NCBI GenBank assembly: GCA_946407725.1
Contig: CAMJPM010000022.1
Coordinates: 1-40,719, forward strand
Reading direction: 5' to 3'
Length of the DNA stretch: 40,719 bases
From: an uncultured Lachnospiraceae bacterium
Lineage (GTDB): Bacteria; Bacillota; Clostridia; Lachnospirales; Lachnospiraceae
Part shown: positions 18,486 to 39,361 of the stretch, piece after piece
Position numbering within the stretch: the first letter of the stretch is position 1
Layout: each line of letters starts with the position of its first letter
The notes under the pieces: model-generated
Seen by the model: only the letters and a program-made list of their open reading frames with translations
What the model was told of the DNA's origin: nothing
Databases searched by the model: none
Program-made: the position numbers and the translations under genes

Positions 18486-21050
18486 ATGACAAAAGACGAA
18501 TTCAGACAGTTAACCGAAAATAACAGGATCTACCTGGACGGAGCCACCGGAAGCATGCTTCAGAAAAGAGGAATGGGCGCCGGTGTATGTCCTGATCTCT
18601 GGATATCGGAAAACCCGGAGGTTTTGATCAACCTGCAGCTTGAGTATCTCCGGGCAGGCTCCCGGATAGTCTATGCTCCCACCTTTACCGCAAACCGGAT
18701 AAAGCTAAAGGAATTCGGCCTTGAGGAGAGGCTGTATGAGTTAAACAGTATCCTTGTGGGAGAGTCAAAAACAGCAGTTAAAAGATTTCATGAGGAAAAC
18801 CCTGAAGCCCTGCCTGTGTTTGTGGCCGGGGACGTGACTATGACAGGAAAGTCCGTGGGGGCTGCAGGAGAGCTTGACTTTGAGGAACTGATCGATATCT
18901 ATAAGGAACAGACGGATGCACTTTGCAGGGCCGGAGCCGACCTCATTGTGGTGGAGACCATGATGAGCCTGCAGGAGACAAGAGCCGCAGTCATTGCCTG
19001 TAAGGAGGTCTGTGATCTTCCGGTAATGACCACCCTTACCTTTGAGGAATCCGGCAGGACACTGTACGGTACGGATTCCCTTACCGCGCTTATCACCCTG
19101 CAGGCACTGGGGGTTTCCGCCTTTGGGATAAACTGTTCCATGGGCCCGAAAGAGATGAAGGGCATGATAGCAGAGCTTAAGAGATATGCCCGGATCCCTG
19201 TCATATGTAAGCCCAATGCCGGCCTGCCCTATATGGATGAAAACGGTAATACGTCATACGCTCTGGATCCCGGGGGCTTTGCCCTGGAGATGGAGGAAAT
19301 AGCCCGCTCCGGTGCGGACATTATGGGAGGGTGCTGCGGCACTTCCCCGGAACATATCCGCGCACTTGTTGAACATACCGTAAATATTGAGCCGGAAAAC
19401 ACAGACAGACAGGATGATCTGTATATGCTCACAAGTGAGCGGCAGAATTTCTGCTTTGGTCTTGAGGACAGATTTTTCATAATCGGGGAGAGGATAAATC
19501 CCACCGGAAAGAAAGCCCTGCAGGAGGAGCTAAAAAAAGGTGTCTTTGACATGGTCACTTCCTTTGCGGAGGAGCAGGAGGAGACGGGAGCAAAGGTTCT
19601 GGATGTGAATATGGGAATGCCCGGGGTGGATGAAAAAGCCCTTATGCTCCGGGCCATAGATGAGGTTACGGGGGTGACAAATCTGCCCCTTTCAATAGAT
19701 ACCAGCCATGTGGATATAATGGAGACGGCGCTCCGTCTTTATCCCGGAAGAGCCCTTATGAACTCCGTTTCCCTGGAAGAGGCGAAATGCGTTCCCCTTC
19801 TCAGGCTTGCAAAAAAGTACGGGGCCATGTGCATATTGCTCCCCTTAAGCGATAAGGGGATACCCGAAAGCCTTGAAGAGAAAAAGGATATAATAAGGCA
19901 GCTTCTTGAGAGAGCGCTTGCAGCGGGATTAAGTAAAACCGATCTCGTGGTGGATGGTCTGGTAGGAACTGTGGGAGCCAATAAAATGGCTGCTCTTGAA
20001 ACACTGGAGACCATAAGGTACTGCAGGGAGGAGCTGGGAATCGCCACTGTCTGCGGTCTTTCCAATATTTCCTTTGGACTGCCGGAGAGGCTCTATGTAA
20101 ACTCCGCCTTTCTTACCATGGCCATAAACAGGGGACTTACCATGGCAATATGTAATCCCATGCAGGAGAGCATAAGGATAGCGGCTCTTACCGGAGATCT
20201 TCTTATGGGAAGGGAAGGCGCAGATCTTTCATATATAGAATTCATGTCCTCCATGGTTCCCGGGGACGGAGTTACAGGGCACAGTAAAATGGCTCCCGGG
20301 GACGGGGTTACAGGGCATAGTAAAAAGGTCTCTGGGGACGGGGTTACAGGGCACAGTAAAAAGGTCTCTGGGGACGGGACTGCCGGGTACAGTAAAGGGG
20401 ACGACCCGGTTTTTGAGGCGGTGCTGAAGGGGAAACGGGACGCAGCCCCGGAGGCTGTCAAAAAGGCCTTAAAAGAGGGTCTGGAACCCGGGGATATTTT
20501 GAATAACTCCCTGCTCCCCGCCATAAACAGGGTGGGAGAGCTTTTCGATAAAAAGAAGTATTTTCTGCCCCAGCTCATTGCCAGCGGCGAGGCCATGAAA
20601 AAGAGCATAGATGTGCTGGAACCCTATCTTAAGAAGGATAAGGATTCCGGTAAAGAAGCCCCGAAGGTAGTCATAGGAACAGTTGAGGGTGACATACATG
20701 ACATAGGGAAAAACCTGGTGGTGATGATGCTAAAAAACCATGGCTTTATGGTTTCAGATCTGGGAAAGGATGTTTCAAAGGAAGCCTTTTTAACGGCCGC
20801 AAGGGAGAATAACGCCGATATAGTTGCAATGTCGGCCCTTATGACAACCACCATGAAACAGATGAAGACAACAATAGAGCATCTCAAAGCCAACGGATAC
20901 GGCGGAAGCTTTATGATCGGGGGAGCGGTCATTACGGAGGGATATGCACGGGAGATCGGGGCTTTTTACTCAAAGGATGCGGCGGATGCGGTAAGGGTAG
21001 CAAAGAGCATTACAGCAGGAAACGCAGATAAGCGCCAGGAAACGTCCTGA
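18486..21050 (+). CDS. metH: Cobalamin-dependent methionine synthase without the activation domain
   Basis: MetH transfers the methyl group of 5-methyl-THF to homocysteine. Of the 854 residues, about 1-300 form the zinc/homocysteine domain (C217, C283, C284 in GINCSMG and GGCCGT). About 325-590 form the pterin-binding domain (GERINPTGKK, DVNMG). About 640-850 form the cobalamin cap and Rossmann domains with the Co-ligand His in GDIHDIGKN (about 738). The C-terminal SAM-dependent reactivation domain of E. coli MetH is absent, as in many anaerobes, which need a separate partner; none is in this window. A four-copy 12-residue repeat sits in the linker at about 590-638. The 3' end is partly duplicated beyond the stop. 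Confidence 0.96.
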   Translation: MTKDEFRQLTENNRIYLDGATGSMLQKRGMGAGVCPDLWISENPEVLINLQLEYLRAGSRIVYAPTFTANRIKLKEFGLEERLYELNSILVGESKTAVKRFHEENPEALPVFVAGDVTMTGKSVGAAGELDFEELIDIYKEQTDALCRAGADLIVVETMMSLQETRAAVIACKEVCDLPVMTTLTFEESGRTLYGTDSLTALITLQALGVSAFGINCSMGPKEMKGMIAELKRYARIPVICKPNAGLPYMDENGNTSYALDPGGFALEMEEIARSGADIMGGCCGTSPEHIRALVEHTVNIEPENTDRQDDLYMLTSERQNFCFGLEDRFFIIGERINPTGKKALQEELKKGVFDMVTSFAEEQEETGAKVLDVNMGMPGVDEKALMLRAIDEVTGVTNLPLSIDTSHVDIMETALRLYPGRALMNSVSLEEAKCVPLLRLAKKYGAMCILLPLSDKGIPESLEEKKDIIRQLLERALAAGLSKTDLVVDGLVGTVGANKMAALETLETIRYCREELGIATVCGLSNISFGLPERLYVNSAFLTMAINRGLTMAICNPMQESIRIAALTGDLLMGREGADLSYIEFMSSMVPGDGVTGHSKMAPGDGVTGHSKKVSGDGVTGHSKKVSGDGTAGYSKGDDPVFEAVLKGKRDAAPEAVKKALKEGLEPGDILNNSLLPAINRVGELFDKKKYFLPQLIASGEAMKKSIDVLEPYLKKDKDSGKEAPKVVIGTVEGDIHDIGKNLVVMMLKNHGFMVSDLGKDVSKEAFLTAARENNADIVAMSALMTTTMKQMKTTIEHLKANGYGGSFMIGGAVITEGYAREIGAFYSKDAADAVRVAKSITAGNADKRQETS
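20255..20397 (+). repeat. 36-bp tandem repeat inside metH
   Basis: The core GGGGACGG recurs at 20262, 20298, 20334 and 20370, an exact 36-bp period. The unit encodes (V/A)PGDGVTGHSKK-type 12-mers, the last copy being degenerate (SGDGTAGYSK). It lies between the pterin domain and the cobalamin cap, where a flexible linker is tolerated. The DNA resembles the GGGGACGG element found between genes elsewhere in the window. Confidence 0.92.
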
Positions 21051-28447: not shown

Positions 28448-28685
28448 CTCTGTGAATTATTCTATAACAGGCGCAAATATGTTACAATACCATATAAGGC
28501 GGGGAAGTCAGCAGGGAAGGTTTTGTTTGACCTGGTTGAAGGTACTGTGTCCGTGACTTCCCTGGGATAAAAAACGTTCCGGTGACTTACAGCGATCCCG
28601 GTTCCACCATTCATCAGACTGGTGTTTTAGGATATAGGGGCGATTGCTAAGAAACATTGTAATATATGGAGGAAAGGAAAAAGAA
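28448..28685 (+). other. Intergenic leader region of the LRR protein gene
   Basis: This stretch holds TACAAT at 28483-28488 with an upstream TG (possible extended -10). It also holds an inverted repeat GGGAAGTCA (28502-28510) / TGACTTCCC (28554-28562), a stem of 9 bp with a 43-nt insert. No T-run terminator follows. I saw no recognised riboswitch, including no obvious c-di-GMP or SAM core. Confidence 0.35.
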
Positions 28686-31600
28686 ATGATGAGAAAGCTT
28701 ATTAAAATGAGTGCGGTTTTCGCCGCAGCTGCAACAATCCTTAGCCTTGGGGCTTTTAACAGTACTGCATGGGCTAAAGAAGTGGAGATTAATGAGGAGA
28801 ACTTCCCGGATGAGAACTTCAGGAATTATCTTCTGGAATATATAGATGATGGCGAAGGAAATGGTGATGGTAAGCTGTCTGATGGTTCAGAGAATACGGA
28901 ATTAACCATCGAAACTATCAATGTAAGTGACAGCGGCATTTCAAACCTTAAGGGTATTGAATACTTTACGGAACTGAGTACTCTTGTTTGTTCAGAGAAT
29001 GATCTTACTTCACTGAGTCTTTCGGAAAACAAAAAACTTGATTTACTGGATTGTTCCCACAATCAGCTGACATCGTTGGATTTGTCTGCCAATACCGCAT
29101 TGACTGAGCTTAGATGTAGTAATAACAGCCTTTCCGGGCTGGATCTTAAGAAGAATACAGGGCTAATAACTCTTTTCTGCGAAAACAATAAGCTCACTTC
29201 CCTGGATCTGAGTAAGCTTGCTGCGCTTGAGGAGCTGCACTGCGGAAATTATTATGATGATTTTCCTGACAGGGATTTTTATAACGGAATAGAATTGATT
29301 GACCTTAGCTATGATAATGCTCTTACAACTTTGGATTGTGAAGGTCTCGGTCTTTCAGCGCTTGATCTGAGCGGAAGTAAGGATCTGGCTGTTCTGGTCT
29401 GCAGGGATAACAGCCTTACGGAACTTGATCTAAGTAATAACGTGAAGCTTAAAGAAGTCTATTGCAGCAACAATAAGCTTACTTCGCTGAATGTGGATAA
29501 TCTCTCCGCTCTGGAGGAACTGTACTATAATAATAGATCGGAAGATGAGCTTTTTTCAGGGAATTTCAACAGTATCACTTCCATAGATTTAAGTCATAAC
29601 GGTAATCTGACATATCTTGATTGTTCGAATAACGGTGTCACCGGCATTGATGTGAGTCATAATACCGCCCTTGAATATCTGTTCTGCGACTCAAATAAGC
29701 TTACATCCATTGATGTGAGTAAAAACACTGCGCTTTTCACCCTGAGCGTTGACAACAATATGCTTACGGATATTGACTTAAGTAAAAACGTAAGCCTTTG
29801 GTGTCTCTATTGTTCCGAAAATCAGCTTACAAAGCTGGATCTTAAGAATAATAAGGAGCTCGATAACTTATTCTGTTACGAAAACAGGCTTACAGAACTG
29901 GATCTGAGTAAAAACAAGGCCATTAAGGAGCTCGACTGCTCAGACAATATGATAAAGAAACTGGATGTAAGTACTCTTTCCAATCTTGTGACTTTTGATT
30001 GTTCAAATAATGAAATGGAGACTCTTATTCTCGGAGATAAAGCTTCTCCCAGAGAGCAGTCAAATAAGATCTGCGGTGCTCTTAATTGCGAAAATAATAA
30101 GCTTACCGAACTTGAGCTTGACTCTGTCCCCAATGTCACATATCTTTACTGCGATCATAATAACCTTACATCCCTGGATCTCAGCGCTCTTAATCATCTG
30201 GATATCCTGCATTGTGACCATAATGCTCTTACATCCCTGGATCTTAGTAAGAACCTGTATCTTTCAAATATGACCTGTTCCCATAACAGAATTAAGAAGC
30301 TGGAATTAAGGAAGGAAAAGAAGCCTGACGACTGGTATGAAGAAGAGTTAGAAGAGGAAGAAGAGGAAACCGGTGAGATAGAAGGAGAAGAAGAAGGAGA
30401 AGGTGAAGGAGAGGATTATTGGGGTGAACCGGAAATCGATGGGGCAGTAGCTCTGTATACCGCTGCTTCTGATGAAGAAGAAGCGGAAGACAGAGACTTT
30501 CCTTATATCGACTGCAGCTTCAATGAGCTAGAGAGCCTGGATGTAAGCCATATGGATGAGCTTGAAGTATTGAACTGCTTCAGAAATAAATACTTAAAAG
30601 CTCCTGATGTTACCGGGAACAAGCTCTTGAAGAGGATCTACGGAAACGGCAATGCTTTTGACAGCATGAACGTGACGGGTCTTAATATAGTTAAAACAGA
30701 CGGAACACTCAGTAAGGATAAAAAGAGCATTTCCTTTAATAAATACGATCCCGATGATCCCATGTTTGACGATCCGGAAGATCCGAATTCCGGCGATCAG
30801 AAAGATCCGAATTCCGGCGATCAGAAAGATACAAATTCCGGCGATCAGAAAGATACAAATTCCGGCGATCAGAAAGATCCGAATTCCGGCGATCAGAAAG
30901 ATACAAATTCCGGCGATCAGAAAGATACAAATTCTGACGATCAGAAAGATTCGAATTCCGGAGATCAGAAGGATTCAAAATCTGACGATCAGAAAGATTC
31001 AAATTCCGGCGATCCAAAAGATTCAAATTCTGACGATCCGGAAGATTCGAAGTCTGACGACCCGGAAAATCAGAAGTCTGTCGTTTCAGGTAACACCGGT
31101 GTCATCAGTCCTAAAAAAGCTGCTGAGAAAGCGGCAAATGAGAATAAGGGTTCCGTAAATGATACCGTGGTATTGCAGCCCTCCGGTAAAAAGTTTGCCC
31201 TGGATTACGAAGGTGTTTCACAGAATGAAGCCGTGATCACCGTTGCAAAGGGAAACAGCTTTAGTATTACCGGAAACTTAAAGGATTTCAAGTCTGATTC
31301 CCCGAATGTGAAGGTCAATAATAAAGGACTTGTGAAGGCAAAGAAGGCTACTGGAGATACCCCGGCTGTCTTAACCTTTAGTTCGGCTTCCGGTGAAACA
31401 AGCTATAAACTGAAGGTTTACGTTAACGATCCGGCGGAAAACCTGGAAACCCTGTCCGGAAACGCGGTGGTTGAAAAGATGAAGATAAAAGCTTCAGCTA
31501 ATGATACTATTCAGGATATATCCATGAAGGGAGTTCCCTTAAACGCCGAGGTGGGAGCTGTCGTGGATAAGAAGGGGGCAAGCCAGCCCCTTCCCGGCAG

Positions 31601-31733
31601 GGATTCCATTTTTGGTATAGGCGACGACGGCTTTTTCCATTTGGCTGCCGAGCTTACCGGCAACAAAGGAAAGGTAAAGCTCCCCTTAAAGATAAACGGA
31701 AAGAAATTTATCTATAACCTGAAGATCAAATAG
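28686..31733 (+). CDS. Secreted leucine-rich-repeat surface protein
   Basis: This protein of about 1015 residues starts with a signal peptide ending TAWA. A long array of ~21-23-residue LRRs follows, of the type L-DCS-N-L-SLDLS-N-AL, with a Cys-containing strand. A highly acidic Glu-rich insertion (about residues 545-590) interrupts the array. Next comes an Asp/Ser-rich linker of twelve octapeptides encoded by 24-bp DNA repeats. The C-terminal ~220 residues look like Ig-like or small beta domains (VSQNEAVITVAKGNSFSITG; KLPLKINGKKFIYNLKI). No LPXTG-type signal or terminal anchor is visible, so surface retention, if any, must use another route. The start ATG 28686 has AAAGGA 7 nt upstream. A protein-binding or adhesive role is likely from the fold, not proven. 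Confidence 0.87.
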   Translation: MMRKLIKMSAVFAAAATILSLGAFNSTAWAKEVEINEENFPDENFRNYLLEYIDDGEGNGDGKLSDGSENTELTIETINVSDSGISNLKGIEYFTELSTLVCSENDLTSLSLSENKKLDLLDCSHNQLTSLDLSANTALTELRCSNNSLSGLDLKKNTGLITLFCENNKLTSLDLSKLAALEELHCGNYYDDFPDRDFYNGIELIDLSYDNALTTLDCEGLGLSALDLSGSKDLAVLVCRDNSLTELDLSNNVKLKEVYCSNNKLTSLNVDNLSALEELYYNNRSEDELFSGNFNSITSIDLSHNGNLTYLDCSNNGVTGIDVSHNTALEYLFCDSNKLTSIDVSKNTALFTLSVDNNMLTDIDLSKNVSLWCLYCSENQLTKLDLKNNKELDNLFCYENRLTELDLSKNKAIKELDCSDNMIKKLDVSTLSNLVTFDCSNNEMETLILGDKASPREQSNKICGALNCENNKLTELELDSVPNVTYLYCDHNNLTSLDLSALNHLDILHCDHNALTSLDLSKNLYLSNMTCSHNRIKKLELRKEKKPDDWYEEELEEEEEETGEIEGEEEGEGEGEDYWGEPEIDGAVALYTAASDEEEAEDRDFPYIDCSFNELESLDVSHMDELEVLNCFRNKYLKAPDVTGNKLLKRIYGNGNAFDSMNVTGLNIVKTDGTLSKDKKSISFNKYDPDDPMFDDPEDPNSGDQKDPNSGDQKDTNSGDQKDTNSGDQKDPNSGDQKDTNSGDQKDTNSDDQKDSNSGDQKDSKSDDQKDSNSGDPKDSNSDDPEDSKSDDPENQKSVVSGNTGVISPKKAAEKAANENKGSVNDTVVLQPSGKKFALDYEGVSQNEAVITVAKGNSFSITGNLKDFKSDSPNVKVNNKGLVKAKKATGDTPAVLTFSSASGETSYKLKVYVNDPAENLETLSGNAVVEKMKIKASANDTIQDISMKGVPLNAEVGAVVDKKGASQPLPGRDSIFGIGDDGFFHLAAELTGNKGKVKLPLKINGKKFIYNLKIK
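30780..31067 (+). repeat. Twelve 24-bp tandem repeats in the LRR gene linker
   Basis: Units of 24 bp start at 30780 and continue in register to 31067. They encode the octapeptide D-(P/T/S)-(N/K)-S-(G/D)-D-(Q/P)-(K/E). The first units are nearly identical and later ones diverge, as expected for expansion from one end. Copy number is likely to vary between strains. Confidence 0.95.
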
Positions 31734-31762
31734 AATTCATAATAACAGATATCAATGATCCT

Positions 31763-31794
31763 GATAACTGTTCAGAACAGAATAGATACTGTTC
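31763..31794. promoter_or_regulatory. GAACAG palindromes upstream of the DUF5674-like gene
   Basis: CTGTTC-A-GAACAG (31768-31780) is an odd palindrome, and GAACAG pairs again with CTGTTC at 31788-31793. The segment GATAACTGTTCAG is the reverse complement of the CTGAACAGTTAC motif found before other genes. It may be an operator, a hairpin or part of a dispersed repeat. Confidence 0.4.
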
Positions 31795-31824
31795 CTGATT
31801 GTTTTTTCATGGAGGAAGTTATTT

Positions 31825-32247
31825 ATGAACAATATGAGTAACATCATTACCGATCAAAGGGGGGTTATTCTTACAGATAATGTTGATCTTGAATGGATCA
31901 ACAGTCTTACACCAAGATATCATAAGGAATATGTAAAATTTGTTGTTGATATGAAGAATAACATTGTTGTTATCGGGATGGATGTACATGCCGATGCCGA
32001 AATTCTTTTGGATGCCGGTATTGAAGATATTTATGGGGGTAATATTTATACGGACGGTCATATTGTTTATCAGTCAACGTTAAATGTGGATAAAAACCTC
32101 AAATTGTACGGCAATGAAGAAGAACAGACCGGTTTTTTAGGTCTCTTCAGAAAAAAAAAGAAGAGGCCTGATAATATGAGGATTATTATTGACAGGGAAA
32201 CCATAGATTTTATCAATACAGTTCTTTTATCATGGGTGATATTATGA
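31825..32247 (+). CDS. DUF5674-like protein
   Basis: The 140-residue protein has a central block YVKFVVDMKNNIVVIG, VHADAEILLDAGIEDIYGGNIY and STLNV. From memory this fits the DUF5674 pattern (VKFVVD, GELHADAE, LWGINLYP). The family has no known function to my knowledge. The C-terminal part (GLFRKKKKRPDNMRIIID) is basic and not part of that core. A GGAGGAAG ribosome site precedes the ATG. The stop overlaps the next gene's ATG (ATGA). Both genes are more A/T-rich than the surrounding biosynthetic genes, suggesting acquisition. Confidence 0.6.
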   Translation: MNNMSNIITDQRGVILTDNVDLEWINSLTPRYHKEYVKFVVDMKNNIVVIGMDVHADAEILLDAGIEDIYGGNIYTDGHIVYQSTLNVDKNLKLYGNEEEQTGFLGLFRKKKKRPDNMRIIIDRETIDFINTVLLSWVIL

Positions 32248-32648
32248 TGGATTTTTCGAAAGTATCTTATGATGATTTTATGAAAAGGGAGCCGGAAGTA
32301 CCGGATATTGATCCTCTGATCCTTAAAAACAGGCAAAGCCATGATCTTCACAGACAACTGCTGGACGTATGGGGTGAGGTTGATTCCTCGCTCTCATTAT
32401 ATGATAAATGGAAGAAGGGACAGGCAGATAGAACTGATCTTGAGAAACAGCTCGAGTGTGTACATAACTGCTGTTTTGTTATTTATTCCGATGAGAAAGC
32501 AAGTAAAGGGATAAAATGGGAGTTGAAGGTTGCAGAATGGGAACTTTATGATTTTATCCTGTGGGATAACCGTTTTAATAATAACAGAAAAACTGTTACA
32601 ATCTGGTTTGATGAGTGGTGCTATGATACGACCTATACCGGGAAATAA
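32244..32648 (+). CDS. Unknown cytoplasmic protein paired with the DUF5674-like gene
   Basis: The 134-residue product starts at ATG 32244 in an ATGA overlap with the preceding gene; the earlier ATG at 32232 is less likely. It is hydrophilic and acidic, with several Trp and Cys residues (LLDVWGEVD, ECVHNCCFVIY, FILWDNRF, TIWFDEWCYD). It has no signal peptide or membrane segment. I do not recognise the family. The tight coupling suggests that the two products work together. Its 3' end overlaps the start of the lipoprotein peptidase gene. Confidence 0.65.
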   Translation: MMDFSKVSYDDFMKREPEVPDIDPLILKNRQSHDLHRQLLDVWGEVDSSLSLYDKWKKGQADRTDLEKQLECVHNCCFVIYSDEKASKGIKWELKVAEWELYDFILWDNRFNNNRKTVTIWFDEWCYDTTYTGK

Positions 32649-33771
32649 AAGAAAAGGATGCATAATTTTATGCCTGCTGGCTGCTTTTGTTTTTTCGTCC
32701 TGTGATAATGACGGAATTTCCGGACAGAAGGAAGCTGCTGGAGAATCAGCATCATCCGTAGAAAATGATAATGACATCATAGTGGCGGTCGAAGCCGAAA
32801 CCGAAATTGCAGAAGAAGCGGATACAGACGCTGAAACCGCTTATGATATTGAAACGGTGGAAGAGAAGGCGGATAGCGCGGCTGAAACCGCGGATAATAC
32901 TGAAATGGCGAAAGAGAAAGAAGATACTGTAGCGGATGCCGCGGACGATGTTGAAATGACGGAAGAGAAAGAAGAAACTGTAGAGGATACCGTGGCTGAA
33001 ACCCCTGAAAATATTGAAACGGTGGAAGATAAGGAGGATACCGCGGACGAAACCGCGGATAATACTGAAATGGCGAAAGAGAAAGAAGATACTGTAGCGG
33101 ATGCCGCGGACGAAACCGAAACGGCAGAGGAAGATAAAGCAGAAGAAAAGGCGCCGGCAGAGGGGGAAGCAGAAGAAACCCCGGAGCAGTTCGCTGAGGG
33201 TTTTACAAAGAGTAAGATAACAGACGACATAAAGAAGAGGATAACAGGTCTCTCCTATGCCGCGGACTGCACTGTTCCCTACGAGGATCTCCGGTACTTA
33301 AGGGTCATGTATGTGAATTTTGGAGGAAGTAAAGTTTCCGGTGAGATCATATGCAATAAAGTAATTGCGGATGATCTTCTGCAGATTTTTAAGGGGCTCT
33401 ATGACGAGGGGTATCAGATAGATAAGATACGCCTCATTGACGAATATGGGGCGGATGACGATCTGTCATGCGCTGACGACAACACCTCCTGCTTCTGTTT
33501 CAGAAAGGTCTACGGCAGTAAGAACCTTTCAAAGCATGCTCTGGGAATGGCGGTGGATATTAATCCGTTTTATAACCCCTACGTGACATATCCCAACGGA
33601 AATATCAGGATATCGCCTCCTGGATCTGAACCCTATGCTGACAGGAATGCGGATTTTCCCCATAAGATAGATAAGAATGATCTTGCCTATAAGCTGTTTA
33701 CGGCCCACGGCTTCAAATGGGGCGGTGACTGGAACAGCCTTAAGGATTACCAGCATTTCCAGAAGGGGTGA
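32623..33771 (+). CDS. Lipoprotein M15-family peptidase (D,D-carboxypeptidase-like)
   Basis: From ATG 32623 the 382-residue protein has a lipoprotein signal (IILCLLAAFVFSSC, lipid on Cys27). A long acidic Glu/Ala/Thr repeat linker (about 45-185) follows, then a zinc peptidase domain. Zinc ligands are H305 and D312 (SKHALGMAVDIN) and H378 (DYQHFQ), with the WGGDW segment typical of M15 enzymes that cleave peptidoglycan stem peptides. The linker contains near-identical blocks (TADNTEMAKEKEDTVADAAD occurs twice) and presumably spans the wall. Longer upstream starts would run through the previous gene and spoil the signal. It overlaps that gene by 26 nt. Confidence 0.87.
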   Translation: MIRPIPGNKRKGCIILCLLAAFVFSSCDNDGISGQKEAAGESASSVENDNDIIVAVEAETEIAEEADTDAETAYDIETVEEKADSAAETADNTEMAKEKEDTVADAADDVEMTEEKEETVEDTVAETPENIETVEDKEDTADETADNTEMAKEKEDTVADAADETETAEEDKAEEKAPAEGEAEETPEQFAEGFTKSKITDDIKKRITGLSYAADCTVPYEDLRYLRVMYVNFGGSKVSGEIICNKVIADDLLQIFKGLYDEGYQIDKIRLIDEYGADDDLSCADDNTSCFCFRKVYGSKNLSKHALGMAVDINPFYNPYVTYPNGNIRISPPGSEPYADRNADFPHKIDKNDLAYKLFTAHGFKWGGDWNSLKDYQHFQKG

Positions 33772-35712: not shown

Positions 35713-35760
35713 TCCATTTACAATTAACCCGCTCACTATTGCTTGAAATAATAAAAAAAG

Positions 35761-35797
35761 ATACCCGGCCACTTTGGGGTGGCAGGGTATTTTTTTT
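35761..35797. terminator. Bidirectional terminator between cysK and wecB
   Basis: ATACCCGGCCAC (35761-35772) pairs with GTGGCAGGGTAT (35779-35790), with one mismatch and a 6-nt loop. It is followed by a run of eight T on the plus strand and preceded by a run of seven A, so it can end transcripts of both convergent genes. Confidence 0.9.
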
Positions 35798-35833
35798 AGG
35801 AGATGGTAACTATTCATTTTAGGAGTTGTTTCT

Positions 35834-35895
35834 GCTGTATCAGGAAGCAAGTCATCCGTTCCGTGTACGGGCTGTATCAGGAAGTAAGATATCCG
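35834..35895. repeat. 37-bp-period duplication across the wecB stop codon
   Basis: GCTGTATCAGGAAG starts at 35834 and again at 35871. The 25-bp copies differ at only a few positions. The copy inside wecB encodes its LLPDTA tail. The copy beyond the stop (35852-35854) is in a different frame because 37 is not a multiple of three. Confidence 0.85.
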
Positions 35896-36991
35896 CGATA
35901 CGTTCGGATGCATGCCCGTCTCCGTAGGGATTTACGGATCTTGCCATTTTTTCGTATGCATCCCTGTTATTAAGGAGTTCAGTGAAATTTCTGTATATTA
36001 TCTCTTCATCTGTACCGGTAAGTCTTAAGGTTCCTGCTGCTATACCCTCCGGACGTTCCGTGGTATCCCTCATTACGAGAACCGGAACACCGAAAGAAGG
36101 TGCTTCCTCCTGGATTCCTCCGCTGTCTGTAAGGATCAGGTGGCTTCTCGCAATGAAATTATGGAAATCAAATACGTCCAGAGGTTCTATGATCCTTATC
36201 CTCTCATCCCCGCCGAAAACCTCAAGAGCGGCTTTTCTTACCGCCGGATTCATATGGATCGGGTAGACTGCCTGTACATCATCATGTTCATCAAGAACTC
36301 TTTTGATGGCTCTGAACATATGGCGCAGAGGCTCACCGAGATTTTCCCTCCTGTGAGCGGTTATCAGAATGAGTCTTTTATCCTTCAGGTTATCAAGCCC
36401 GGGGTGTGAATAATCATCCGTCACTGTTGTCTTTATGGCGTCGATCGCAGTGTTTCCTGTAATATATATATTGTCCCTGTTTTTCCCCTCCCGGATAAGG
36501 TTGTTTGCGGATAACTCCGTAGGAGCAAAATAATACTTGGCGATTATCCCTACTCCCTGCCTGTTAAACTCCTCGGGAAAGGGGGAATAGATGTTGTAAG
36601 TGCGAAGTCCGGCTTCCACATGGCCCACAGGAATCTGAAGATAGAAAGCGGCCAGTGCGGCGGCAAAAGCAGTGGTCGTATCTCCGTGAACGAGGACTAC
36701 ATCAGGTCTTTCTTTTTCAAGGATGGGTCTTATCCGTTCCAGAACCCGGATCGTCACATCAAAAAGAGTCTGATTATCCTGCATGATATCAAGATCATGA
36801 TCCGGTTCTGTCTCGAAAACTCTTAATACCTGTTTCAGCATTTCCCTGTGCTGGCCGGTCACACATACTTTGATTTCAGCGGAGGCTCTGCGTTTCAGTT
36901 CTTTTACCACAGGGCACATTTTGATAGCCTCGGGTCTGGTGCCGAATACCACCAATATTCTTTTTATACCGATTTCAGTGTTTTTATTCAT
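35852..36991 (-). CDS. wecB: UDP-N-acetylglucosamine 2-epimerase (non-hydrolysing)
   Basis: WecB interconverts UDP-GlcNAc and UDP-ManNAc for surface glycans. The 379-residue protein has VVFGTRPEAIKM, VCVTGQHREML, VLVHGDTTT, HVEAGLRTYN, ITAHRRENLG, LTDSGGIQEEAPSFG and RDTTERPEGI, which is the complete set of GT-B-fold epimerase motifs. I chose the ATG at 36991 (MNKNTEIG) because AGAGGA lies 6 nt upstream; an earlier ATG at 37027 lacks this. It follows the NfrB-like glycosyltransferase gene by 48 bp on the same strand, so the two probably form an operon that supplies and uses UDP-ManNAc. Confidence 0.95.
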   Translation of the reverse strand: MNKNTEIGIKRILVVFGTRPEAIKMCPVVKELKRRASAEIKVCVTGQHREMLKQVLRVFETEPDHDLDIMQDNQTLFDVTIRVLERIRPILEKERPDVVLVHGDTTTAFAAALAAFYLQIPVGHVEAGLRTYNIYSPFPEEFNRQGVGIIAKYYFAPTELSANNLIREGKNRDNIYITGNTAIDAIKTTVTDDYSHPGLDNLKDKRLILITAHRRENLGEPLRHMFRAIKRVLDEHDDVQAVYPIHMNPAVRKAALEVFGGDERIRIIEPLDVFDFHNFIARSHLILTDSGGIQEEAPSFGVPVLVMRDTTERPEGIAAGTLRLTGTDEEIIYRNFTELLNNRDAYEKMARSVNPYGDGHASERIADILLPDTARTRNG

Positions 36992-37039
36992 TATTTTTCC
37001 TCTGAGCATATTCTGAGAGCCACGCAATTTAAGGTTCGT

Positions 37040-39079
37040 TTACCCCCATATTCCCATTATGCTTCTCATTTTGTATTCAGAGACAGAGTATAAGACGGCA
37101 AACTTACCGATAAGCACCACCTGCTCATAGCTTATCTGGCCGCTGTGATAGAGCCTCAGGCTTTCCAGCAGTCCAGATGAGCCCTCCTCATCATCAAGGG
37201 ATCTTTGCATACATTCTTCCGTTATGTACATCTTCTTTATCCTGACATGGTTTTCTTTCTCAAAATCCCTGATATCTTCTTCGGCAGTGCTGTTACATAT
37301 TCCAATAATAAGCAGGCCGTTTTCCTCTGTCAGGGGAAGAATCCTCTTTTTCTTCAGCATGTCCTTATCGAAGTGTTCCGCGGTTTCCGTGTAATCAAGT
37401 CTTTGAAGCAACTCTCCGGGTATAAACTGTATGTGCTTCACATGGCTTAAAGAGCGTATCATCTGTTCTTCTGTTATCAAGCCCTGTCTGATAAGATATG
37501 CACCCACCTGTTCGCCATGCTCTTTATCTGCGTTTTCCAGGGCATCCTGGAACTGTTTTGCGGTAATAAAGCCCTGTACTATGAGGACATCTCCCAACAT
37601 CCTGCGGTACTGTCTCAACTGATCCCGGGATAAGAAGCTGTGATCGGTTTTAGACCATTTTACTTTTGCCTTCTCTCTGTCCTTCTGCTTCTCTTTTTTG
37701 ACCTTTTGCTTATTCTCATTGTAAAGTCCGAATTTTATCTTCATGGCTCCGATGACTGCACAAAAATTGATCAGATTACCGTATATCAGCCGGATAGGGA
37801 ATAATGGCGGCAGAAGACATCCGAAAAACACGCTCCTTAATCCGTAAACGCTGTACAGCGCATAGGCCCTTGTGAGCTGACGCAGGCACGTAATGACAAA
37901 AACCGCAACGGACATATAATAAAATACGGATCCCGGCTCAAAAAAAGGATCCAGCCCGAGGATGGCAGCAGCAATGATATAGATCGAAAGTATATAGCCT
38001 AACAGGGGCAGGAGATTAAGAAACTTGCTTTTAAGATCTTTGTAAAATGAATACCTTCCGGCAAAGGAAATCTTCTCGGATGAAAAGACATCCTTCATTC
38101 CAACTGACTGCATGGTGATCCCGTAGGTCCACCTGGTTTTCTGCCTCACCGCAGCCCGAAATGTTGAGGGGAAAAGGGATCTGGTGGTGATAAAATCCAT
38201 TTTGATCCTGCCGTTTTTTATGACCCTTGGCAGTTTATTCAGTACATAGTGCAGAGCGATACCTTTTTTATAAAGGTTCAATGACAGAAGATAATCTTCG
38301 GTAAGGCTTTCTTCCGGAAGTATCGGTTCATCCCCGAATTTATCGATAACACGTCTGGAAATAGCAAAACCTGTTCCCGCACAGGGGACAAAGGCACCCA
38401 TATCACGTCTCTGCACCAGTGTCATAAAATGGTTTTCGGCAAACTCATCCGCATAGGTGGCAGTAGTGAGCTGCTTGAAGAAATTCCTGAATCTTGGCAT
38501 CTCAAGTATCGGAAATACAGGGAACTGAAGAGCATCATGATCGTCAATGAGATAATTTGTGGTAAGGAGTTCATAAGTATGGATAGCGTCCTCCGAATCG
38601 TGAACCGTAAGAGCTGAAAAATGAATATTGTTCTCCTTTTCAAATTTTTTGATCTCGGTTATAACATGGTTTATATTCTGTGCCTTTGTTGTCGGTCCTT
38701 CCATACTGTTAATGACAGCGTGTACATTGGGAAATATCCTGCCTGTTTCCTCTACGGCGGCTATTGTCTCCGGGTCATTGGGATATACGCCGACAAAAAG
38801 ATGATACATGGATTTGGGATAATCTGTGGTATTAAGAAAATTTGTTATCACATCTCCGATGACATTGGCCTCATGCCATGCGGCTATTGTTACAGCAAGC
38901 ATTTTAGGCGCGGTGTTTCTTAAAGTATTGAAATCAAGGTAATCATCCTTGCTCCGATTCCGGTGGAACACAGCAGACACAAAGGCAAACAAATACCAGA
39001 TAAGATCATCAAGCCCGAAGATCAGATAAATAACGATCATCGCACAGCCAAAGATCTTGAACACTTCCTCGATATTCAT
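37040..39079 (-). CDS. NfrB-like GT2 glycosyltransferase with C-terminal MshEN domain
   Basis: The 679-residue membrane protein has an N-terminal helix (about 8-38) and a processive GT2 core: HDSED at 160-164, GTGFAISRR near 235, TED at 260-262 and QKTRW at 313-317. A helix bundle (about 350-450), a highly charged Lys-rich linker (456-480) and a soluble C-terminal domain follow. That domain holds two copies of the MshEN pattern (MLGDVLIVQGFITAKQFQDA from 494 and QVGAYLIRQGLITEEQMIRS from 524), which binds c-di-GMP in MshE and NfrB. The architecture is that of E. coli NfrB. With wecB next to it, a c-di-GMP-activated ManNAc-containing exopolysaccharide synthase is the best hypothesis. The polymer is inferred, not shown. 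Confidence 0.88.
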   Translation of the reverse strand: MNIEEVFKIFGCAMIVIYLIFGLDDLIWYLFAFVSAVFHRNRSKDDYLDFNTLRNTAPKMLAVTIAAWHEANVIGDVITNFLNTTDYPKSMYHLFVGVYPNDPETIAAVEETGRIFPNVHAVINSMEGPTTKAQNINHVITEIKKFEKENNIHFSALTVHDSEDAIHTYELLTTNYLIDDHDALQFPVFPILEMPRFRNFFKQLTTATYADEFAENHFMTLVQRRDMGAFVPCAGTGFAISRRVIDKFGDEPILPEESLTEDYLLSLNLYKKGIALHYVLNKLPRVIKNGRIKMDFITTRSLFPSTFRAAVRQKTRWTYGITMQSVGMKDVFSSEKISFAGRYSFYKDLKSKFLNLLPLLGYILSIYIIAAAILGLDPFFEPGSVFYYMSVAVFVITCLRQLTRAYALYSVYGLRSVFFGCLLPPLFPIRLIYGNLINFCAVIGAMKIKFGLYNENKQKVKKEKQKDREKAKVKWSKTDHSFLSRDQLRQYRRMLGDVLIVQGFITAKQFQDALENADKEHGEQVGAYLIRQGLITEEQMIRSLSHVKHIQFIPGELLQRLDYTETAEHFDKDMLKKKRILPLTEENGLLIIGICNSTAEEDIRDFEKENHVRIKKMYITEECMQRSLDDEEGSSGLLESLRLYHSGQISYEQVVLIGKFAVLYSVSEYKMRSIMGIWG

Positions 39080-39117: not shown

Positions 39118-39160
39118 ATTATAGCATAGGATAGCGAATTTTATCGAAAATTCGCTATCC
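39118..39160 (-). promoter_or_regulatory. Promoter and 14-bp perfect palindrome upstream of the nfrB-like gene
   Basis: On the minus strand TATAAT (39123-39118) is preceded by TGC, an extended -10 box with a poor -35. Immediately upstream, GGATAGCGAATTTT (39129-39142) and AAAATTCGCTATCC (39147-39160) form a perfect 14-bp inverted repeat with a 4-bp centre that covers the -35 region. It could be an operator for the glycan operon. Confidence 0.6.
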
Positions 39161-39361
39161 GTACTTGGCACGTGCCCTGTTTTCGTAATCTTCGCACATA
39201 ATCATTTCTTAAAGACCACAAACCCCGTCCCCCAGGACCATAGTTTTTTCCTATACCACATAATAGGTATCAAGTATTGGACGGCTTTTGTTTTCTGTGC
39301 AAAAATATCTCCAGCAAAAGCAATTAAAATTTTTAGGAGAAAAACACCGGAGGTGAATATT
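39161..39361 (+). other. metY upstream region
   Basis: The stretch holds a reverse GGGGACGG-type element (39219-39236) and a short inverted repeat ATACC (39253-39257) / GGTAT (39266-39270) around a CATAAT. A strong GGAGGTGA ribosome site precedes ATG 39362. I saw no S-box or other SAM riboswitch core, so how metY responds to methionine is not evident. No convincing -35/-10 pair was found. Confidence 0.4.

Follow-up and report, generated by a model that had tools for sequence, protein, structure and literature searches.

An NfrB-like glycosyltransferase gene adjoining wecB in a Lachnospiraceae bacterium, a candidate c-di-GMP-controlled surface glycan system

We analysed a 40,719-nucleotide stretch of DNA (the window; contig CAMJPM010000022.1 of assembly GCA_946407725.1) from an uncultured Lachnospiraceae bacterium, the host. 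On its minus strand, the window carries a gene for an NfrB-like membrane glycosyltransferase (GT) of family GT2 with a C-terminal MshEN-type domain (37040..39079, 679 amino acids), followed by wecB (35852..36991), and the two genes likely form an operon. On balance, we favour a reading in which cyclic di-GMP (c-di-GMP), acting on the MshEN-fold domain, would switch on the synthesis of a surface glycan containing N-acetylmannosamine (ManNAc) from the UDP-ManNAc made by WecB. NfrB is described as a GT that binds c-di-GMP and is controlled by it (Junkermeier and Hengge 2021, PMC8669469), and the same article associates wecB with nfrB in organisms having no other wecB and states that GGDEF genes accompany nfrB in most pseudomonads.

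The GT gene was assigned from its open reading frame (ORF), profile matches, conservation, and structure comparison. Among NCBIfam models, the protein hits those of the NfrB group (NF008411 among them, at 299.9 bits), and it shares 29.9% identity with Escherichia coli K-12 NfrB over 639 aligned residues. D169, D267, and W330, catalytic in the E. coli enzyme, align with D161, D262, and W317, located in the minus-strand motifs DSED (residues 161–164, 38588..38599), TED (residues 260–262, 38294..38302), and QKTRW (QxxRW; residues 313–317, 38129..38143), respectively. Conservation was scored in 114 homologues, the best 120 of 1301 less six dropped by length (640–740 amino acids kept); alignment A1 took in 94 of the best 120. 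D161 is conserved in 113 of the 114, while E163, D164, TED, Q313, R316, and W317 are conserved in all. Membrane helices were predicted on both sides of the GT domain by the model and by hydropathy; the model places helices 339–354, 357–374, 385–412, and 429–449 between the GT and C-terminal domains, and hydropathy gives strong support to 12–29 and 361–372 only. Comparison of the predicted structure indicated that the GT2 core resembles cellulose and hyaluronan synthases. An earlier reading of the window, made from the DNA letters alone (the sequence-only reading), had named the D, D, TED, and QxxRW motifs, the membrane helices, and an NfrB-like assignment; the motifs and their alignment with E. 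coli NfrB, the predicted helices, and the MshEN-type domain bear it out. Some Clostridia members are already labelled 'phage adsorption protein NrfB' in databases.

The C-terminal region is predicted to form an MshEN-type domain with N and C subdomains (residues ~487–632; 37184..37621, minus strand). It contains two tandem 24-residue MshEN-like motifs (37445..37597, minus strand), which match the NCBIfam model NF053729 ('c-di-GMP_motif') at 45.3 bits, with a cut-off of 38, over residues 495–545; the host genome holds no second match to this model. The Pfam MshEN model PF05157 reached 13.9 of the 23.1 bits needed in the window GT and found 0 matches in the whole genome, being too insensitive here, and NF053729 and a fold search were therefore used. 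As the whole-model VIA structure listing was without an MshEN row, the domain was folded alone, and its predicted fold is MshEN-like. By predicted fold, the enzyme has the C-terminal MshEN domain of NfrB. The MshEN claim of the sequence-only reading stands as regards NF053729 and the predicted fold, and is weakened by departures in the ligand pocket at Arg1 and Gln24; PF05157 stays below its cut-off. Beyond the part that matches MshEN structures, residues 640–679 (37040–37162) form a conserved helical C-terminal tail (LYxxGxIxYEQ...MGI).

The wecB gene encodes, by family, a non-hydrolysing UDP-N-acetylglucosamine (UDP-GlcNAc) 2-epimerase. It has an ATG start with AGAGGA upstream, in a frame open to TTG 37027. 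The product scores 516.2 bits against TIGR00236 (cut-off 210.15), in agreement with the earlier placing of wecB next on the same strand, and, at E 1e-30 or better, matches 24 distinct sequences of solved structure, most of them named UDP-GlcNAc 2-epimerase. The 48-bp gap given earlier holds for ATG 36991 and becomes 12 bp for TTG 37027, the start of the longest frame. Because the other TIGR00236 matches in the host genome are far weaker (224.6, 71.7, and 66.6 bits, with only the first over the cut-off), the window protein is the best WecB of the host. wecB is convergent with a cysK-like gene, and upstream a metY-like gene is divergent (both named by eye), with a symmetrical terminator-like hairpin (35755..35800; plus-strand stem from a scan, minus strand read by eye) between the cysK-like gene and wecB.

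The nfrB-like gene is sporadic, occurring in 3 of 299 family, 2 of 48 genus, 4 of 391 class, and 8 of 398 phylum genomes sampled (samples partly overlapping, with the host counted in each). Database matches and genome-sample searches together gave 24 distinct loci, after merging (L022 with L014/G293; L025, L026, and L036 with L010/G337; L021 with the window) and replacement by larger loci (L023, L027, L028, and L029 by L037–L040; L041–L047 by L048–L054). Within 1.5 kb of the nfrB-like gene, wecB is found in 10 of the 24: downstream on the same strand in the window, L009, L010/L036, L018, L020 (with a truncated wecB), L049, and L050; upstream in L012; divergent in L015; and beyond one intervening GGDEF gene in L039. 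The nfrB–wecB adjacency, for which the sequence-only reading had suggested a survey, thus recurs in several gene arrangements. A GGDEF gene (GG[DE]EF signature) lies within 1.5 kb in five loci (L012, L036, L037, L039, and L050), and a second one stands 2.7 kb off in L012. Under a simple density model, in which related loci count as independent and each genome is given 1.6 wecB, wecB adjacency was observed 10 times versus about 0.1 expected (P below 1e-14), and GGDEF adjacency 5 times versus 0.97 expected (P 0.002; P 0.009 at a 3-kb radius). The wecB-linked members fall in three branches of a tree with some nodes of low support (0.06, 0.19), built without L019 and with partial proteins for L017, L018, and L020.

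GGDEF matches are present in all 24 carrier genomes; the host genome has 40 (39 over the cut-off), none of them on the window's contig. A wecB match over the TIGR00236 cut-off was found in 12 of 14 carrier genomes tested (13 of 15 handles, G293 and G304 being the same genome), a test that left out the genomes of the seven phylum-level loci plus G392, G385, and G375. In the genome of L039 (G385), GGDEF matches number just two, and one lies directly beside nfrB with wecB following, a candidate minimal dedicated c-di-GMP circuit. Two loci carry defects, which may be either decay or draft-assembly error: the nfrB-like gene of L017 (904–3081) is interrupted by an in-frame TAG where Trp is conserved, and in L020 (9983–12752) nfrB is frameshifted and the N-terminal half of wecB is missing.

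E. coli NfrA, the outer-membrane pore whose gene shares an operon with nfrB, and YbcH gave no tblastn match at E 0.01 in any of the 24 loci (whole genomes not searched), in line with the earlier description of a system without NfrA. When all ORFs within 7.5 kb of nfrB in these loci were compared with one another, considering clusters with at least one member of 90 amino acids or more, no conserved NfrA substitute emerged: the clusters were wecB (10 loci), spurious antisense frames of wecB (9), and GGDEF (6, including L016 at 5.6 kb), and the next was mixed and counted as 3 loci. The host probably has one membrane, as judged only from the Lachnospiraceae names of its close relatives.

These features suggest how the pair may work. 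A diguanylate cyclase, whose putative gene lies beside nfrB in some relatives, would make c-di-GMP, which, by analogy with E. coli NfrB, would dock on the LG-motif pair near G496 and G526, freeing the GT domain. WecB, going by its family, would convert UDP-GlcNAc to UDP-ManNAc. The GT2 domain, whose predicted fold is like that of cellulose and hyaluronan synthases, would then add sugars (ManNAc, to judge from the wecB linkage) and may thread the chain through its own helices. As no NfrA turned up close by and the cell probably has a single membrane, the product would come out directly at the surface. The simplest reading is a pared-down version of the E. coli NfrB scheme, using local or global c-di-GMP and no outer-membrane pore.

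Several observations weigh against this proposal. The protein misses the NF008411 equivalog cut-off of 1170 bits and is therefore filed as NfrB-like, not NfrB. The canonical MshEN motif is (R/K/L)LGxx(L/V/I)(L/V/I)xxG(L/V/I)(L/V/I)xxxxLxxxLxxQ (PMC11731258; spacing taken as 24 residues), and the window protein departs from the two-motif consensus: G3, L6, G10, and L21 are retained in both motifs, and motifs I and II have M and Q at position 1, F and M at position 17, and A and V at position 24. Gln24 is absent from both motifs in 114/114 homologues, Arg1 is absent in 53/53 of the window's own subgroup but not throughout the branch, and the glycine of motif II is missing from two distant members. 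A nearby wecB was not seen in 14 of the 24 loci, among which L016, L017, L019, L040, L051, and L054 have short contigs or flanks, and TIGR00236 gave no match over its cut-off in G301 (L011) and G309 (L019), both metagenome-assembled.

The motif losses would suit a domain that no longer reads c-di-GMP and serves as a structural tail or for another ligand, leaving a GT–WecB pair without c-di-GMP control. The sub-cut-off PF05157 score points the same way, as does the reported part of MshE Arg9 and Gln32 in binding (PMC5013675). However, 114/114 homologues keep the glycines of the two motifs together with R493 and D497, and GGDEF neighbours occur above chance; moreover, PilF GSPII-B is reported to bind c-di-GMP at 6 nM without the Arg (PMC11731258), and changes to MshE Arg9, Asp12, or Gln32 to shift affinity no more than fivefold (PMC5013675). 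Loss of c-di-GMP control is, in our judgement, unlikely. Equally improbable is a non-processive GT that would transfer a single sugar, ManNAc or a different one, onto a lipid or a wall polymer, with a separate flippase for export. WecB relatives serve other pathways, which favours an adjacent WecB for general UDP-ManNAc supply (e.g., to wall polymers) and a GT using another donor. The loci and the 2 of 14 genomes in which wecB was not detected favour it too, but the linkage in 10 loci with differing gene order and in three branches, the lead of the window WecB over the other host matches (516 bits vs 224.6, 71.7, and 66.6), and the reported requirement of E. coli NfrB function for WecB speak against it, and we hold this supply role to be unlikely.

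Returning to c-di-GMP control of the GT–WecB pair, we put forward a broader proposal as possible only. The NfrB-like branch of Bacillota might be a stand-alone, one-membrane ManNAc-polymer system (synthase, WecB, and sometimes a local diguanylate cyclase), c-di-GMP-controlled and without an outer-membrane pore, in which the window's subgroup has rebuilt the MshEN pocket, keeping the paired glycines and R493/D497 without the motif Arg/Gln contacts. If true, one-membrane bacteria of the rumen and gut would have a ManNAc-type surface glycan gated directly by c-di-GMP; to our knowledge, few c-di-GMP effectors for polysaccharides have been described in such bacteria. The NfrB system would shrink to two parts, a minimal synthase and the enzyme that makes its precursor, giving a clean test of polymer transfer across the membrane by NfrB alone and of how much the MshEN pocket can vary yet bind c-di-GMP, and the glycan would be a candidate receptor for phages of these bacteria.

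A perfect palindrome (39129..39160) stands upstream of the GT gene, with arms 39129–39142 and 39147–39160 complementary at 14/14 positions, and a sigma-70-like site (39118..39147, minus strand) has its -35-like hexamer within it. The 28-base core has six copies in the genome at 0 mismatches and none at 1–3 mismatches, a longer right-hand flank is common to four of the six, and the copies adjoin seemingly unrelated ORFs (homoserine dehydrogenase-, argC-, and cobalamin-synthesis-like, among others, named by eye). The exact copies, shared flank, and seemingly unrelated neighbours led us to reject a c-di-GMP-regulon operator or operon-specific promoter element. Since the scan gave 11 sigma-70-like sites versus 7.4 ± 3.0 in shuffles, sites of this kind do not exceed the random expectation here. 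The palindrome is one copy of a dispersed repeat and chances to overlie a promoter-like site; of the palindrome-covered promoter in the sequence-only reading, the palindrome is real and the operon-specific promoter falls away. A Rfam search of the window at the gathering score gave no riboswitch or other match. Window positions 39129–39186 and loci L030–L035 form a six-copy composite dispersed repeat of palindromic modules, and in L031 the first module is followed by a second of the same design (arms around ATCG).

Elsewhere in the window, a methionine-synthase-like gene (18486–21050, by Pfam domains) has an in-frame 36-bp tandem repeat at 20260–20396 (3.8 copies, 12-amino-acid units). Its GGGGACGG core recurs around 26544/26590, 35659/35696, and 39225, and is apparently a dispersed repeat translated inside the enzyme. 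Positions 28644–33771 encode two proteins with internal tandem repeats: a leucine-rich-repeat protein (1029-amino-acid frame), which matches an internalin-J model far under the cut-off, and an M15-peptidase-like protein.

The E. coli N4 glycan receptor pathway (NfrB-NfrA-YbcH with WecB), as described in PMC8669469 and PMC8669472, shares with the window the GT2 motifs, the C-terminal MshEN-type domain, and the WecB partner, and the catalytic and key glycine positions of its NfrB align with those of the window GT. In E. coli, wecB lies in the enterobacterial common antigen operon, NfrB retains motif II Gln24, and NfrA and YbcH are present, whereas here wecB adjoins the GT gene, Gln24 is lost, and the loci yielded neither partner. 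The MshEN domain of MshE and GSPII-B of PilF are fused to an ATPase, whereas the window domain is fused to a GT and has Arg1 and Gln24 replaced in both motifs. BcsA and hyaluronan synthase share the GT2 core in structure comparison and have more membrane helices than are predicted for the window GT; BcsA carries a PilZ domain where the window GT has the MshEN-type domain. Eggerthella lenta belongs to a different phylum. Its NfrB homologue, likened here by description and not by sequence, is likewise reported in a Gram-positive bacterium without NfrA (PMC8669469, section 11). The 'little-described pathway' of the sequence-only reading is a fair term in part, as both this Gram-positive occurrence and the wecB linkage are already in that article; in our searches of open-licence papers, no listed title or opening of an abstract set out such a system for Bacillota. 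The present analysis adds its recurrence across Bacillota, the nearby GGDEF genes in that phylum, and the change in the pocket.
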